Of a stretch of DNA of 64,000 nt, positions 9,587 through 53,392 are shown piece after piece. Source of the DNA: Niastella vici (GTDB lineage: Bacteria > Bacteroidota > Bacteroidia > Chitinophagales > Chitinophagaceae); NCBI RefSeq assembly GCF_002077945.1, contig NZ_LVYD01000001.1, positions 1-64,000 on the forward strand, in the 5' to 3' direction. The notes beneath the pieces were generated by a model. It saw only the letters and a program-made list of their open reading frames with translations, did no database searches and was not told where the DNA came from. The position numbers and the translations under genes were made by a program. Numbering within the stretch: the stretch's first letter is position 1; every line of letters starts with the position of its first letter.

Positions 9587-9687
9587 TGAAATAGCGCTGA
9601 AAATTGGAAACTTTAGTAATAACCATTTAACAATCAAGCAATGAGAGGCACCCTTTCAGGAAGATCTCAAAGGCGGAAGATTTAATT

Positions 9688-9746
9688 AGTTACCAGTTAC
9701 CAGTTTCCGGGACCTGGCAACTGGTAACTGGCAACTGGTAACTGGC
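9688..9746. repeat. palindrome made of tandem AACTGGTAACTGGC units
   Basis: Left arm (about 9688-9708) carries two GTTACCA units; right arm (about 9716-9746) carries repeated AACTGGTAACTGGC in the opposite orientation, with a short GG-rich centre. It lies between the convergent MFS and tryptophan dioxygenase genes and could form a long hairpin acting as a bidirectional terminator. Both arms are themselves short tandem repeats. Confidence 0.8.
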
Positions 9747-9753
9747 ATCTGCC

Positions 9754-12153: not shown

Positions 12154-12269
12154 GATAAATAGTGAAGTAGTTTTGCCGCGGCGAATTTCGGTATTGTGGT
12201 GGGATTTGTGAATTTTAATTCTTTGCTCCAGAAGCAACTCATTGATTGCCAAAACGATGAATGATTTCT

Positions 12270-12632
12270 TTACCTCTTGTTTACCTCCTGGCTGCCCATC
12301 TGCTTTGCAATCATCTGATTTTCAACAACAGCAAAATTATCTCTTTACCCCTGGTTAACTCCTGCTTAGGTATTCTTTACCTCCCGGTTACCCACGCTTC
12401 TCCTTTTCATTACCCCCTGGTTGGCTTTTCTTCTCCCTTCTTCAGGTACCCATTATGTTAGGATAATATTGCCTTTACCTTTTCATTTCCTTTTTATTAC
12501 CTAAGGGGTAAACAAATGGTTAATCTAATATTACCACAATACGACCACAACCAAACCACAACCTAACCGAAGTACATTAACAGCAGATAATAGCTATTAA
12601 TAAAAAGCTAAAATTGGCTAAACTATCACACA
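12270..12632. repeat. degenerate array with 11-bp periodicity
   Basis: The 570-nt divergent spacer between purD and the peptide transporter is largely filled by short related units spaced 11 bp apart. Clear blocks: TTACCTCTTGT / TTACCTCCTGG (12270-12291); ACCCCTGGTTA, ACTCCTGCTTA, GGTATTCTTTA, CCTCCCGGTTA from 12347 to 12390, continuing with CCTTTTCATTA and CCCCCTGGTTG to 12423; and CCACAATACGA, CCACAACCAAA, CCACAACCTAA (12534-12566). The second and third blocks are in register (17 x 11 bp). AT-rich TTA/TAA trinucleotides recur at one helical face. Promoters for both flanking genes must lie in or beside it. Function unknown. Confidence 0.75.
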
Positions 12633-20847: not shown

Positions 20848-20942
20848 GATTGCTGATTTCGCGATTTCGGGATTTTGAGATTTATAAAAATGCTGAACTT
20901 TATGAAATCCCGAAATCTCAAAATCTAAAAATCAGAAATTCT
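20848..20942. repeat. palindromic repeat family A, copy 1
   Basis: Left arm about 20851-20884 contains GATTTCGGGATTTTGAGATT; right arm about 20904-20940 contains AAATCCCGAAATCTCAAAAT. Lies between the convergent gpmI and cox1 genes. Related copies at about 25404-25492 and 53320-53378. Confidence 0.85.
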
Positions 20943-25365: not shown

Positions 25366-25397
25366 AAAGTGGGTCACTCTCAATGGTGACCCACTTT
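25366..25397 (+). terminator. stem-loop after the beta-barrel gene
   Basis: Perfect 12-bp stem AAAGTGGGTCAC / GTGACCCACTTT with an 8-nt loop, 25 nt past the stop. A strong hairpin with TTT at the end of the stem but no long T-tract. Confidence 0.75.
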
Positions 25398-25403
25398 GCG
25401 TTA

Positions 25404-25492
25404 TTTCGGGATTTAGAGATTTCGGGATTTCGCAGAATGCTGAAACCAAATAAATCCCAAAATCGAAAAATCTCAAAATCAGCAATTTCATA
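25404..25492. repeat. palindromic repeat family A, copy 2
   Basis: Left arm contains TTTCGGGATTTAGAGATTTC; right arm contains AAATCCCAAAATCGAAAAAT. Same units as copy 1 (about 20848-20942) and copy 3 (53320-53378) but less perfect. Ends about 10 nt before the next gene start at 25503. Confidence 0.8.
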
Positions 25493-25502
25493 ATTTTACC
25501 CG

Positions 25503-39414: not shown

Positions 39415-40542
39415 ATGGCAGGCATTTATTTACATATCCCGTTTTGCAGGCAGGCCTGTCATTATTGCAATTTTCACTTCTCCACATCATTGAAGCTAAA
39501 GAACGAATTTGTGGAGGCTTTATTGAAAGAAATACAGCTGCAAAAGAATTATCTGCCCGCCGAACCCGTGAACACGATCTATTTTGGCGGCGGCACCCCT
39601 TCCCTGCTTACGAAAGACGAACTATGGGCTATTCTGCAAATGGTGCGGCAAAATTTCTCTGTGGCTGCAGATGCCGAGGTAACGCTCGAAAGCAATCCCG
39701 ATGATATAACCGAAGAAAAACTCATTGACTGGAAGCAGGCCGGCATCAACCGGTTAAGCATAGGCGTTCAATCGTTTTTTGAAGACGATCTGCGCTGGAT
39801 GAACCGCGCCCATTCGGCCCAACAGGCTATAGACAATCTGCAACTGGCAAAGCAATATTTCAATAATATCACCATGGACCTCATTTACGGCACGCCTACC
39901 CTGCCCGATGCCAATTGGCAGCACAACGTGCAGCAGGCCATTGCACTGGGCATTCCGCATGTTTCGTGTTATGCGCTCACCGTTGAACCCGGCACCGCGC
40001 TGTCATCGCTGATCAATAAACACAAGATGGCCGATGTAAATACCGAAGACCAGGCCCGGCAGTTTTTGCTGTTGATGAACTGGATGCAGGAAGCCGGTTA
40101 TGAACATTACGAGATCTCGAACTTCGCTTTGCCCGGCATGCGCAGCCGCCACAACAGTTCTTACTGGCAGGGCGCCGCCTACCTGGGACTGGGCCCTTCG
40201 GCCCATTCGTTCAATGGCGCATCGCGGCAATGGAATATTTCGAACAATGCGCTCTATATAAAATTGCTGAAAGAAGATAAAGTTCCATTTGAAATTGAAA
40301 CGCTCACTGGTACCCAGCAGTTAAACGAATACATTATGACCTCGCTGCGCACTATGGAAGGACTGAATTTGCAATGGGTGGCAGAACGGTTCAGCCAAAA
40401 AGCCGCCGATGAGTTGTTACAGGCCGGAAAGCCGTTTATGGAAACCGGTAAAATGCAATTGAATAATGGCCGCCTGCAACTAACGAAAGAAGGGAAGTTG
40501 TTTGCCGATGGTATTGCAGCGGAGCTTTTCTTTACCCCCTAG
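39415..40542 (+). CDS. hemW: HemW, radical SAM haem chaperone
   Basis: 375 residues. Radical-SAM cluster motif CxxxCxxC at Cys11, Cys15, Cys18 followed by NF, then YFGGGTPSLL and LESNPDD; C-terminal HemN_C domain. Presence of the additional F after the cluster and absence of extra HemN N-terminal residues point to HemW rather than coproporphyrinogen dehydrogenase. Delivers haem to respiratory enzymes. Divergent from the barrel gene. Confidence 0.93.
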   Translation: MAGIYLHIPFCRQACHYCNFHFSTSLKLKNEFVEALLKEIQLQKNYLPAEPVNTIYFGGGTPSLLTKDELWAILQMVRQNFSVAADAEVTLESNPDDITEEKLIDWKQAGINRLSIGVQSFFEDDLRWMNRAHSAQQAIDNLQLAKQYFNNITMDLIYGTPTLPDANWQHNVQQAIALGIPHVSCYALTVEPGTALSSLINKHKMADVNTEDQARQFLLLMNWMQEAGYEHYEISNFALPGMRSRHNSSYWQGAAYLGLGPSAHSFNGASRQWNISNNALYIKLLKEDKVPFEIETLTGTQQLNEYIMTSLRTMEGLNLQWVAERFSQKAADELLQAGKPFMETGKMQLNNGRLQLTKEGKLFADGIAAELFFTP

Positions 40543-40576
40543 ACTGCCTAAAACTGCGGCTATTCCCTGCTAAGAG

Positions 40577-40807
40577 TTGCACTGGAGTTGCACCGGGGTT
40601 GCACTGCAGCCTTAACATTCAGTGCAACCCCGGTGGTAGTGTCAGTGTAGACCGAAGCGGGTTTTAGGCTTCTTCGGGTATGCCAGGAGACTGATTCCAA
40701 CCTGATTCCAACCAGGTTCCGACCAGGCTTTGGATTTCTTCGCAAATTTGCGAAGAAGCCCCAGCTAATTCCCAAACGATTCCCGAACAATTCCCGAAGA
40801 AATTATA
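40577..40807. repeat. degenerate array with 11-bp periodicity plus palindromes
   Basis: Units recur every 11 bp in one register over 231 bp: TTGCACTGGAG, TTGCACCGGGG, TTGCACTGCAG (40577-40609); GAGACTGATTC, CAACCTGATTC, CAACCAGGTTC, CGACCAGGCTT (40687-40730); GCTAATTCCCA, AACGATTCCCG, AACAATTCCCG (40764-40796). It also holds a perfect 16-bp inverted repeat (40591-40606 with 40620-40635, 13-nt loop) and a 22-bp palindrome at 40737-40758. Lies between convergent hemW and gpsA units. No coding potential is credible. Function unknown. Confidence 0.8.
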
Positions 40808-40853
40808 GGCCAGGCCATAGCAAACCATTAATTATCAGTGCAATAGAGCCCAA

Positions 40854-40883
40854 TAAAAAATGCGCCCCGTGTACCGGAGCGCA
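40854..40883 (-). terminator. rho-independent terminator of the gpsA unit
   Basis: Hairpin TGCGC ... GCGCA (40861-40883, one internal mismatch), followed on the minus strand by TTTTTT (40860-40855). Lies 35 nt past the stop of the 36-residue membrane peptide gene. Confidence 0.85.
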
Positions 40884-40917
40884 TAACTATCACTAAATCA
40901 ATATTTTAAAGACTAAA

Positions 40918-41028
40918 TCAGACCGAATGGTGGTCTTTTTTAACGTGCTTGATCACCTCATTAATGATCACAATACCGGCCAGCACCAGCATCGCAGTAA
41001 ATCCATATGTTCCTAATGAGATAGGCAT
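40918..41028 (-). CDS. 36-residue single-pass membrane peptide
   Basis: ATG at 41028, TGA at 40920-40918. MPISLGTYGF, a hydrophobic helix of about 17 residues (TAMLVLAGIVIINEVI), then a basic tail KHVKKDHHSV. Positioned 80 nt after the gpsA stop, just before a proper terminator, so it is probably transcribed with gpsA or on its own. The clean stop-terminator spacing and the helix-plus-basic-tail layout support it as a real gene. No family recognised. Confidence 0.6.
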   Translation of the reverse strand: MPISLGTYGFTAMLVLAGIVIINEVIKHVKKDHHSV

Positions 41029-41108: not shown

Positions 41109-42146
41109 TTAGACCAACGTCTTTTCTACAAGATTAAAGCCTTTGCTGGGTTTAACATTTTCCCACAGAATGCGGTAAACGGTTTCGGCTATGGGCATTT
41201 CGGCGCCGATCTGTTTATTTACCATATAAATACATTTGCTGGCATTATATCCTTCGGCCACCATATTCATTTCGAGCTGCGTAGCCCGCACCGAATAACC
41301 CTTACCGATCATATTCCCAAACGTACGGTTACGGCTGTACAACGAGTAACAGGTTACCAGCAGATCGCCCAGGTATACCGATGCCGCATAATTGGGCGTT
41401 TTGCGATGCGTTACCGGGTCTTCGCCATCATGCACGCCCACTTCAATATGCTGAATACCCACTTTCTTTAAAAAACCGGCCATTTCATCGGCACAGTTAG
41501 CGATGAGTACGCTCAGGAAATTATCACCATATTCAAGCCCATGCGCAATACCGGCGCCCAGCGCATAAATATTTTTCAGCACCGCCGCATATTGCACGCC
41601 ATACACATCGGGGTTCACTATGGTGTTAAGGTATTCTGTAGTGAAACAGGCGGCAATGTTTTCGGTCATGGCCACATCGATGCCCGAAAAAGTGAGATAG
41701 GATAATTTTTCTGAAGCTACTTCCTCTGCATGGCAGGGTCCCATTACCGTGAAATAATCAGATAATGGCAGGTTGAACTCATTTTTCAGGTGATCGTTCA
41801 GCAGCAAATTATTATCGGGCAGAATACCTTTTACCGCCGAGATCAGTTTTTTGCCCTCAAATGCATTAGCGGGAAGGTCTTTAAGCGAAGCCGTTACATA
41901 GGCCGAAGGAACCGCAATGAGGATGCAGTCACTGGCTGCAATGGTTTGGGCAATATCGGTATGCAGGGTAAGCAGATCGGTATTGAAATACACCGAACTT
42001 AAATAACCGGGATTGTGATGCCGTTGTTGTAAATGCTTTACGGTCGCCTCTGATCTTACACACCAGTTTATAGATTGTTTATTGTCTGTACAGATCTTCG
42101 CCAATGCCGTGGCCCAGCTTCCACTACCAATTATTCCCAGTTTCAT
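41109..42146 (-). CDS. gpsA: NAD(P)-dependent glycerol-3-phosphate dehydrogenase
   Basis: 345 residues. Rossmann motif GIIGSGSWATALA at the N-terminus, SAVKGI near residue 100, VMGPCHAEEVA, and the catalytic-lysine segment YAAVLKNIYALGAGIAHGLEYGDN, with NRTFGNMIGKG in the C-terminal domain. Makes sn-glycerol-3-phosphate for phospholipids from DHAP. Typical length. Confidence 0.96.
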   Translation of the reverse strand: MKLGIIGSGSWATALAKICTDNKQSINWCVRSEATVKHLQQRHHNPGYLSSVYFNTDLLTLHTDIAQTIAASDCILIAVPSAYVTASLKDLPANAFEGKKLISAVKGILPDNNLLLNDHLKNEFNLPLSDYFTVMGPCHAEEVASEKLSYLTFSGIDVAMTENIAACFTTEYLNTIVNPDVYGVQYAAVLKNIYALGAGIAHGLEYGDNFLSVLIANCADEMAGFLKKVGIQHIEVGVHDGEDPVTHRKTPNYAASVYLGDLLVTCYSLYSRNRTFGNMIGKGYSVRATQLEMNMVAEGYNASKCIYMVNKQIGAEMPIAETVYRILWENVKPSKGFNLVEKTLV

Positions 42147-50174: not shown

Positions 50175-50204
50175 TTGGGCGAATAACAACACCCCCTATT
50201 TTTG
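50175..50204 (+). promoter_or_regulatory. promoter of the cobalamin operon
   Basis: TTG (50175-50177), 19-nt spacer, TATTTTTG (50197-50204): complete Bacteroidota -33/-7 promoter. Predicted start near 50210 places the riboswitch at the very 5' end of the transcript. Confidence 0.75.
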
Positions 50205-50562
50205 TTGCGCAAATGGTCTCCATCCTGTTTCGGCTCAGCCGGCACAGGATGGGTGAAAAGGGAAACCGGTGCAAATCCGGTGCTATCCCCGTAGCTGTAA
50301 GTTCTATTCGTGAATGGTGAATGGTGAATGGCTCGCAAATTTTGAAAATTGATTTGCGACATTGCGCCGCCCCAAATTTATTGCCGATTGCCGATTCACG
50401 ACTGTTGAAACTCCATACCACTGTTGATGATGGCCGAATGCCTTATCGATGGGAAGGTTTGAAAACAGTGAACAAGCCAGAAGACCTGCCACTTGCAAAA
50501 TATAGCATCAACGGGCTTTCGGGTGAAAAGCCGGGATGAAGTCAGTCTTTCCCCGGAAAGAC
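50205..50562 (+). ncRNA. cobalamin riboswitch with long variable insert
   Basis: Core motifs in order: GGGAAACCGGTGCAAATCCG (50261-50280 region), GCTATCCCCGTAGCTGTAA (to 50300) and AAGCCAGAAGACCTGCC (50474-50490). These are the B12-box and flanking conserved segments of the Cobalamin family. Between CTGTAA and AAGCCAG lie 173 nt, mostly an imperfect palindrome with tandem TGAATGG units (50311-50331) and an inner hairpin CGCAAAT / ATTTGCG (50334-50358). Two small hairpins after the aptamer, GGCTTT/AAAGCC (50514-50532) and GTCTTTCC/GGAAAGAC (50545-50562), form a plausible expression platform. Expected to repress the operon when adenosylcobalamin is plentiful. Confidence 0.9.
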
Positions 50563-52501: not shown

Positions 52502-53314
52502 ATGAAAAAAGAGCTGCGCATATTTTTTACGGCCATGATGTTCCTTACGCGGCTACCAGTGCCGCGTTTTGCCGATCATTCGCCCGATTACCTGGAACGG
52601 TCGGTAAAATATTTTCCCCTGATAGGCTGGATAGTAGCCGCCATCAGCGGGTTCCCCTTCCTCGTCTTTAATAAGTACATCAGCGAAGATATTGCCATTG
52701 CAGCCTCTATTATTGCCGGCATCTTAACAACCGGCGCATTTCATGAAGATGGGTTTGCCGATGTGTGTGACGCATTTGGCGGTGGCTGGACAAAAGAAAA
52801 GATCCTGCTGATCATGAAAGACAGCCGCCTGGGTTCCTATGGCGTAATAGGCATGATCGCCATTCTGTTCTGTAAATTTCTATTATTGAAAGAGCTGCCC
52901 AAATTCACGCCCGATCTTCAAAACCCTTCTCTGAATATTTTCTACAATTACCGGTACTTTTTACTCACGCTCATTGCAGCCCATAGCGTAAGCCGGTTGA
53001 TGCCCGTGCTGGTGATGCGGTTTTATGATTATGTGAGCGACCCCGATGGCAGTAAATCAAAACCGGTGGCCACCCGCAAACCAACTATTGGGGCTTTACT
53101 GGTTGCTGCTATTCCAGCCCTGGTCCCTTTCGCCTTTATGAGCTGGCAATTTCTGCTGGCGATTATAACAGTAGTATATGCGGCCTTCAGCCTTGCCAAA
53201 TATTTTAAAAAATGGATCGGGGGTTATACCGGCGATTGCCTTGGGGCTATTCAGCAGGTAAGCGAGTTGTGTTTTTATTTATGTATGATCATTATCTGGC
53301 GCTATATAATTTGA
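52502..53314 (+). CDS. cobS: adenosylcobinamide-GDP ribazoletransferase
   Basis: 270 residues, about six membrane helices. Metal-binding acidic motif GAFHEDGFADVCDAFGGG (about residues 79-96), then MKDSRLGSYGVIG, and C-terminal GGYTGDCLGAIQQVSELCFY. Joins AdoCbi-GDP and alpha-ribazole(-P) to make the final cobamide in the membrane. 8 nt after cobT. Confidence 0.97.
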   Translation: MKKELRIFFTAMMFLTRLPVPRFADHSPDYLERSVKYFPLIGWIVAAISGFPFLVFNKYISEDIAIAASIIAGILTTGAFHEDGFADVCDAFGGGWTKEKILLIMKDSRLGSYGVIGMIAILFCKFLLLKELPKFTPDLQNPSLNIFYNYRYFLLTLIAAHSVSRLMPVLVMRFYDYVSDPDGSKSKPVATRKPTIGALLVAAIPALVPFAFMSWQFLLAIITVVYAAFSLAKYFKKWIGGYTGDCLGAIQQVSELCFYLCMIIIWRYII

Positions 53315-53319
53315 TTGTT

Positions 53320-53378
53320 GATTTCTGATTTAGAGATTTTGGGATTTAAAAAATCCCAAAATCTCTAAATCAGAAATC
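53320..53378. repeat. palindromic repeat family A, copy 3 (perfect 28-bp arms)
   Basis: Left arm 53320-53347 and right arm 53351-53378 are perfectly complementary with a 3-nt loop; each contains GATTTAGAGATTTTGGGATT or its complement. Lies inside the cob operon, between the cobS stop and the cobC ATG (53393, 15 nt after the arm). It may reduce cobC expression or act as a transcript-processing site. Copies 1 and 2 are at about 20.85 and 25.4 kb. Confidence 0.9.
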
Positions 53379-53392
53379 CCGAAATTTGCCCC

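Follow-up and report, generated by a model that had tools for sequence, protein, structure and literature searches.

An intergenic tract with an 11-bp periodicity in Niastella vici is a mosaic of two dispersed repeat families and may belong to a wider class of short-unit arrays

The STRR repeats of cyanobacteria are of the heptamer type and are grouped with hairpin repeats of the P6b type. Long simple sequence repeats of the category LSSR(5-11) are reportedly near-perfect direct repeats. Their units are 5-11 nt long and heptamers are common among them (Mrazek 2007, as cited in PMC4679880). P6b itself is a stem-loop of the Nostoc tRNA-Leu group I intron that PMC4476775 describes as composed of heptanucleotide repeats of two classes (Class I, TDNGATT, and Class II, NNTGAGT). 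Direct repeats of another heptamer, TAACTGA, are described from Beggiatoaceae, cyanobacteria and five Bacteroidetes (PMC4679880). Finally, the REP/BIME/REPIN group includes REPs of 20-40 bp which carry GTAG or CGTC tags (PMC3733652; for REP-type palindromes see also PMC3116915).

The DNA analysed here (the window) comprises the first 64 kb of contig 1 in the 10.06-Mb genome of the soil bacterium Niastella vici, a close relative of other Niastella and of Longitalea species. The tract of interest (40577-40807) has as its left neighbour a hemW-like gene for a radical SAM heme chaperone (39415..40542, + strand; NCBIfam TIGR00539, above cut-off). Its right neighbour is a 36-aa ORF (MPISLGTYGF..., 40918..41028, - strand), which has no NCBIfam match and occurs between hemW and gpsA in seven genus relatives (tblastn, 78-89% identity). 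A terminator scan places a terminator-like hairpin after this ORF (40860-40884), and a gpsA-like glycerol-3-phosphate dehydrogenase gene lies beyond it (41109..42146, - strand; 14 NCBIfam matches, all below curated cut-offs). A sequence-only reading of the window had drawn attention to the tract, to its convergent setting and to another 11-bp array at 12.3 kb. The convergent setting is correct for the tract but is not shared by the two loci: the 12.3-kb array is located between divergent genes, purD (-) and a transporter gene (+) which, from its protein, we take to be POT-like. Rfam gives no match to the tract at gathering score (the six that it lists up to E = 1 fall under that score), and a phage origin was rejected since there is no match among 50,697 phage records.

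The 11-bp periodicity reported for the tract is real. Identity at lag 11 is 0.468 compared with 0.247 in dinucleotide shuffles (z 7.7; reached by none of 1000), lag 11 is the top lag among 4-40 (none of 300 shuffles reached the best-lag value), and z is 6.3 when the tract is compared with the whole window in 220-bp stretches. The arrangement proposed at first, 21 consecutive units in one register, does not hold. Agreement between one unit and the next reaches 8-10 of 11 bases at only 6 of the 21 positions and is 1-6 at the other 15, and the anchor motifs at 40577, 40695 and 40769 are in phases 9, 6 and 3 modulo 11. There is therefore no single 21-unit register; three clusters account for the period. 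These contain the three unit types distinguished by the sequence-only reading, and TRF also finds them (rows beginning at 40574, 40691 and 40767) as runs of about three copies each with 85-86% matches. A perfect 16-bp inverted repeat and a 22-bp palindrome, both noted previously, are likewise present.

The tract combines two families of short dispersed repeats, which we call R1 and R2, in a mosaic. The R1 element (40576..40650) includes three direct 11-bp units, TTGCACYGGRG (40577-40609), a loop and an inverted copy, CAGTGCAACCCCGGTG; a repeat search locates the perfect 16-bp inverted repeat within it (40591-40606 / 40620-40635). As RNA, the region 40571-40650 folds at z -6.1 on the + strand and -5.0 on the - strand. 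The R2 element (40670..40801) is delimited by outer arms, TTCTTCGGGTAT and ATTCCCGAAGAA (40670-40681 and 40790-40801), which are 92% complementary. It contains two clusters of three 11-bp units, both on the + strand, one of the type GATTCCAACC[T/A] (40693..40725; TRF row 40691-40724 and the sequence itself) and the other of the type TTCCCGAACAA (40769..40801; TRF row 40767-40798 and alignments). The centre is occupied by the perfect 22-bp palindrome, TTCTTCGCAAATTTGCGAAGAA, read directly from the sequence at 40736..40757. The RNA fold of 40663-40807 has z -3.6 and -3.7 on the two strands.

A DNA search of the tract against its own genome returned 12 rows: the tract itself, two of its own inverted parts, seven R1 places (55-76 bp at 81-93% identity) and two R2 places (matching segment 40722-40802 at 86%). 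Nine of the ten genus genomes, including that of N. vici, contain matches, many of which fall on the R2 palindrome. Its inner 18 bp, CTTCGCAAATTTGCGAAG, occurs exactly at 22 places, which are spread over 6 of 294 family genomes, against none for the reversed control. All but one of these places are within five of the six sampled genus genomes (three in N. vici, six in G004, two in G005, three in G002, seven in G003 and none in G001); the remaining one is in a genome of another genus (L254). In many copies from other species the frame around the core consists of units CTTCGCAARTY and GTCTAAGAGAA. The copy in the window has the same frame as these relatives but carries TTCCCGAACAA units where many genus copies have GTCTAAGAGAA.

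The 21 R2 copies that we aligned (all except L254) are homogenised within genomes: identity is 83.4% within genomes (33 pairs) compared with 70.0% between them (177 pairs), and the R2 copy at hemW has its nearest copy in its own genome in three of four genomes. G005 is an exception, with 64.7% within the genome and 71.5% to the others. A typical R2 copy from a relative shows no more than modest folding (z -2.7 and -1.6), and the alignment of copies includes no covarying pair among the 7 pairs predicted.

The array at 12.3 kb (12266..12575, + strand), the first of the two described in the sequence-only reading, belongs to a third dispersed family, R3, with an element of about 310 bp made of TTACC-type 11-bp units. 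A search of the N. vici genome gave 12 rows, which include R3 itself and partial pieces. Matches are found in five of the ten genus genomes (own included) and are strong in N. vici, G001 and G004. R3 folds no better than shuffles (z -0.09). Its copies have a sharp right end and, by eye, no terminal inverted repeats. In 11 of 16 cases the copy lies upstream of a co-oriented right-hand ORF, at distances of 46 to 904 bp, and two copies occupy convergent gaps.

Two R3 sites are orthologous between N. vici and Longitalea, with flanks that align on both sides, so R3 seems old at these two loci. The eight N. vici copies used nevertheless form one clade (support 0.996, in a tree of copies other than the partial L150 and L151). 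At purD the copy shares 95-96% identity with two paralogues of its own genome and 71-73% with its orthologues; for the other copy at a locus shared with Longitalea the values are 95-97% and 74-75%. The flanks of the orthologues are 66-83% identical. The sequence-only reading had proposed looking for changes in whole 11-bp steps among strains. Among R3 copies and species, rather than strains, an 11-nt step is the most frequent one: the 91 pairwise alignments contain 106 interior gaps of at least 5 nt, of which the commonest size is 11 nt (28), although 10 nt (19), 6 nt (13) and 5 nt (11) are common too and related pairs are counted repeatedly in these figures. In multiple alignments, clean gaps of exactly 11 columns occur among others.

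Three further observations concern such families. A dispersed 11-bp family with the unit ACCGAAGCTTR is present at L133 and on contig 1 of N. vici (G000:C1) at 352081-352174, 452337-452402 and 693691-693750. The neighbourhood of an IleS-like gene contains R2 in G004 and R3 in N. vici (L257/L145), and that of a GlpD-like gene contains R1 in N. vici and R2 in G005 (L134/L263); in both cases gene names and orthology were assigned by eye.

Arrays with short periods are not restricted to these families. An intergenic scan of 1.264 Mb of the N. vici genome identified 67 arrays, of which 46 have a period of 7 (16), 8 (17) or 11 (13); periods 21 (7), 10 (3) and 20 (3) follow, and every other period from 4 to 30 occurs at most once. 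Five shuffles of the same DNA yielded 21 arrays altogether and none at period 11; a single shuffle of a 464-kb part of the genome, all of which overlaps the larger sample, yielded one. In the ORFs of the 1.264 Mb, multiples of three predominate and periods 7, 8 and 11 are absent (the ORFs were called mechanically, and some DNA counted as intergenic may be small genes). With 13 period-11 tracts in intergenic DNA and none in ORFs or in the five shuffles, period 11 is enriched between genes and the suggestion of a common genomic element class is borne out. The same periods also lead in samples from three genus relatives, except that period 9 outnumbers period 8 in G006: 36 arrays of period 7, 12 of period 8 and 3 of period 11 among 68 in G003; 16, 7 and 2 among 31 in G004; and 7, 1 and 4, with 2 of period 9, among 15 in G006. 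In other Chitinophagaceae, sampled at 74 loci that all surround hemW, 27 arrays include 9 of period 7, 2 of period 8, 2 of period 9, 3 of period 11 and 4 of period 14.

When 22 arrays are pooled, identity peaks at lags 11, 22, 33 and 44 with none at 21, 31-32 or 42. This indicates duplication of exact units and not alignment to the turn of B-DNA, and a helical phasing of 10.5 bp was rejected for want of a signal at lags 21 and 32. The 43 unit consensuses from 31 regions fall into 33 clusters with no dominant motif (the window tract is counted twice, as its own array and as the hemW gap), which agrees with the earlier proposal that the arrays have their spacing and not their sequence in common. 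A common core motif was also considered and rejected: ACC occurs in 15 of the 33 clusters compared with 8.4 expected, a modest excess.

Most of the 11-bp arrays tested consist of runs that can pair with each other. Of the genus arrays, 12 of 16 with 11-bp units, 33 of 78 with 7-bp units and 11 of 29 with 8-bp units have inverted arms beyond every one of 20 shuffles (periods 14 and 21 being pooled with 7, 16 with 8 and 22 with 11). The whole tract, taken as 40571-40815, folds at z -5.2 as RNA and -5.8 as DNA. Gaps bearing arrays fold more stably than others (median z -2.5 and -3.2 compared with -0.9). Divergent gaps, with a length share of 0.282, hold only 8 of 83 period-7 and 4 of 40 period-8 arrays, a depletion that period 11 does not show (6 of 22, with 6.2 expected). 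The sequence-only reading had not noted that the class includes periods 7 and 8, that the tracts are mosaics built from dispersed families or that most 11-bp arrays tested are inverted pairs.

The window itself contains other arrays of this kind: a period-7 array (9670..9753) and three period-8 inverted arrays of the type GATTTNNN / AAATC (20850..20941, with RNA fold z -3.9 and -5.0; 25396..25498; and 53306..53385). By eye, the family formed by GATTTNNN and its reverse complement accounts for most of the 17 period-8 arrays in the 1.264 Mb. A further repeat class is represented by arrays of period 20-21 outside called ORFs, many with AATT-type motifs and up to about 670 bp long. Examples are found in G000:C1 (241681-241964, 415798-415997 and 624867-625537), in G000:C58 (61841-62228, 243264-243636 and 470415-470784) and in the purD gap of G008 (L284).

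The window also includes a cobalamin riboswitch (50197-50507, 81.4 bits) in which a 151-nt stretch replaces 50 positions of the model. This stretch contains heptamer runs, GTGAATG and ATTGCCG, that partly pair, and by analogy may be comparable to the Nostoc P6b stem; folded alone, 50290-50420 is no more stable than shuffles (z -1.1).

We then compared orthologous gaps between species. In the hemW gap of eight other genomes (G007, which gave no hit there, is omitted), lag 11 is the best lag in five (L029, L032, L034, L035 and L036; z 4.2-11.0); L030, which is partial, shows it weakly (z 2.5), and no lag-11 array is seen in L031 (z -1.2) or L033 (z 1.7, best lag 10). The gap before the MKRAAAILLLL protein has a lag-11 z of 3.3-5.9 in all nine genomes, N. 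vici and eight others (in G007 the contig begins inside the gene, and this genome was left out). Its units are those of R3 in N. vici, G004 and G001, a TTACC variant in G002, of the CTACC type in G008 and unrelated in G005, G006 and the pair G003/G009, making four or five unit types by eye. The purD gap has R3 in N. vici, G001 and G004 (z 4.4-6.0), weak signals in G005 (2.8) and G006 (2.0) and no 11-bp array in G002, G003, G008 or G009. A z of at least 3.3 is thus reached in other genomes in 5 of 8 cases for hemW, 8 of 8 for the MKRAAAILLLL gap and 2 of 8 for purD, against a background of 8 of 172 N. vici gaps of 250-700 bp. The hemW values derive from dinucleotide shuffles, and those of the other two gaps and the background from block shuffles. 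These gaps are not a random choice: hemW was given, and the other two carry R3 in N. vici.

A less selected comparison used 110 orthologous gaps (those of at least 60 bp in both species, out of 223) from positions 1-420000 of N. vici contig 1 and 400 kb of G003. Period 7 occurs in 9 of these gaps in N. vici and 13 in G003, and is shared in 6 compared with 1.06 expected (P 5.6e-5; 0 of 10000 in a length-stratified permutation). For period 11 the figures are 5 and 2, with 2 shared compared with 0.09 expected (P 0.0017); this sharing weakens when gap length is controlled (443 of 10000 permutations), and the two shared gaps, hemW and MKRAAAILLLL, were both known beforehand. Period 8 is found in one gap in N. 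vici, in seven in G003 and in none jointly. By best class, the N. vici period-7 gaps correspond in G003 to period 7 in six cases, period 8 in one and no array in two; those of period 11 correspond to 11 in one, 8 in two and none in two; and the single period-8 gap corresponds to none. The unit letters of arrays shared by the two species differ. When the threshold is lowered, nine gaps have arrays in both, and in seven of these each species has at least one strand that folds at z -2.5 or below. Related species often keep an array of the same step in other letters at the same place, and this points to step and folding as more important than sequence.

How do these arrays compare with the described systems? 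The view that no named repeat family applies was half right: by architecture, the nearest relatives are the heptamer-repeat hairpins of cyanobacteria and the REP-like palindromes. As in Nostoc P6b (PMC4476775), a stem is made of paired short tandem units, insertions and deletions are of unit size (7 nt there), and one unit class can be replaced by another while the fold is kept. P6b, as portrayed in that paper, is one intron stem with 7-nt units; here there are many intergenic sites, units of 7, 8 and 11 bp and dozens of unit sequences. Judged against the features of the STRR/P6b group, the tract lacks the 7-nt unit, which the 7-bp arrays of the same genome have. Complementary stem runs are present in the tract and in the majority of genus 11-bp arrays and are absent from R3, and replacement of letters while structure and place persist is seen in the MKRAAAILLLL gap and in the seven foldable gaps shared with G003.

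The unit lengths fall within those of LSSR(5-11), where heptamers are also common (Mrazek 2007, via PMC4679880). The arrays here are degenerate, often inverted and common to several loci. The runs of about three copies at 85-86% in the tract are not near-perfect repeats, as those of LSSR(5-11) reportedly are. The TAACTGA repeats resemble them as intergenic heptamer arrays that extend to Bacteroidetes; they differ in being, in the account of PMC4679880, one fixed direct sequence which lies mostly near start codons in the Beggiatoaceae genome. R1 and R2 share with the REP/BIME/REPIN group the form of short dispersed intergenic palindromes clustered as mosaics; R3 is dispersed but unfolded. They differ from REPs, as these are presented in PMC3733652, by the 11-bp step, and a narrow search found no partner transposase. 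In the titles and opening abstract lines of the open-licence literature we recognised no description of period-11 intergenic arrays in the Niastella group. Given this, the likeness to P6b and the lack of an 11-bp step in REPs, we place the period-11 arrays as a new form of short-unit hairpin repeats.

The preferred periods, the dispersal of the families, the inverted arms, the homogenisation within genomes, the prevalence of 11 nt among long R3 indels and the unit length kept in relatives under changing letters are observations; the processes behind them are inferred. We have moderate confidence in the following explanation. The tract would belong to a class of non-coding intergenic arrays of Niastella and Longitalea that are retained, mostly hairpin-prone, change in unit steps, are homogenised within genomes and keep their unit length while losing their sequence; any function is a proposal. 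Members would consist of degenerate units of a fixed length (7, 8 or 11 bp), arranged in most of the 11-bp cases tested as two inverted, foldable runs. Slippage by whole units would generate new ones, the arms would stay complementary through template switching at the quasi-palindrome (PMC8794818 describes this process as making and keeping hairpins), and copies would exchange sequence through recombination. A site may keep its array because a foldable intergenic hairpin, whatever its letters, is tolerated or mildly useful, probably as RNA, in the form of a spacer structure or one at the 3' end. Two observations make such a role plausible: gaps with arrays fold better than the rest, and divergent gaps are poor in periods 7 and 8. 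Selection for hairpins does not appear to be general, since R3 is unfolded, the relative's R2 copy folds modestly and R2 has no covarying pair. It is the first two of these points, together with the failure of period 11 to avoid divergent gaps, that keep our confidence at this level.

The alternative that survives best, although we consider it unlikely, makes the arrays miniature mobile elements of the REP/REPIN or MITE-like kind, with a preference for certain intergenic hot spots. One spot would then hold different families in different species, and a transposase or some other trans-acting protein would use the 11-bp units as subsites. The dispersal of R1 to R3, the presence of different families in the same gaps in different species, the exact R2 core in most sampled genus genomes and the patchy distribution of R3 (half of the genus genomes) all fit this idea, and the dispersed copies could indeed mean that the gaps are insertion hot spots and not sites of inherited arrays. 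The genome, however, has a single match (L154) in a search limited to Y1 transposases, the kind to which RAYTs belong, and no transposase is seen by eye among the listed neighbours of the copies. R3 appears old at its two Longitalea-orthologous loci, by eye its ends are without terminal inverted repeats, and no target-site duplication was made out.

Cooperative binding sites for a DNA-binding regulator or architectural protein, arranged on one face of the helix, are improbable. The strict spacing, the 22-bp palindrome and the exact conservation of the R2 core could be read in this way, as could the position of most R3 copies before a co-oriented ORF, but a spacing of exactly 11.0 drifts with respect to B-DNA and leaves no signal at 21, 31-32 or 42, the units have no dominant motif and two R3 copies sit in convergent gaps. 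An operator array for a regulator was rejected on the mixed orientation of the genes and, again, the lack of a dominant motif. Equally doubtful are plain neutral slippage repeats, unselected decay products with a period set only by the habits of the polymerase: heptamers do prevail among the long simple repeats of bacteria, and contact with the polymerase has been proposed as the reason (Mrazek 2007, via PMC4679880), but this does not account for the inverted arms, the more stable folding of array-bearing gaps, the depletion of periods 7 and 8 from divergent gaps or R3 orthologues that are still 71-75% identical between flanks of 66-83%.

Returning to the explanation in terms of retained, hairpin-prone arrays, a bolder form of it can be stated, to which we attach rather little credence. 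The heritable property would be the unit length (7, 8 or 11) together with foldability; the letters would be rewritten by a mutational or enzymatic process with built-in steps of 7, 8 and 11, and the hairpins would do a sequence-independent job between genes. From one species to another these arrays retain their position, their unit length and often the capacity to fold, but not their letters, so that alignment does not reveal them and most tests of function in non-coding DNA, which seek conserved letters, would miss them. The preference for 7, 8 and 11 in non-coding arrays also raises the question of what sets the step sizes of slippage in bacteria.
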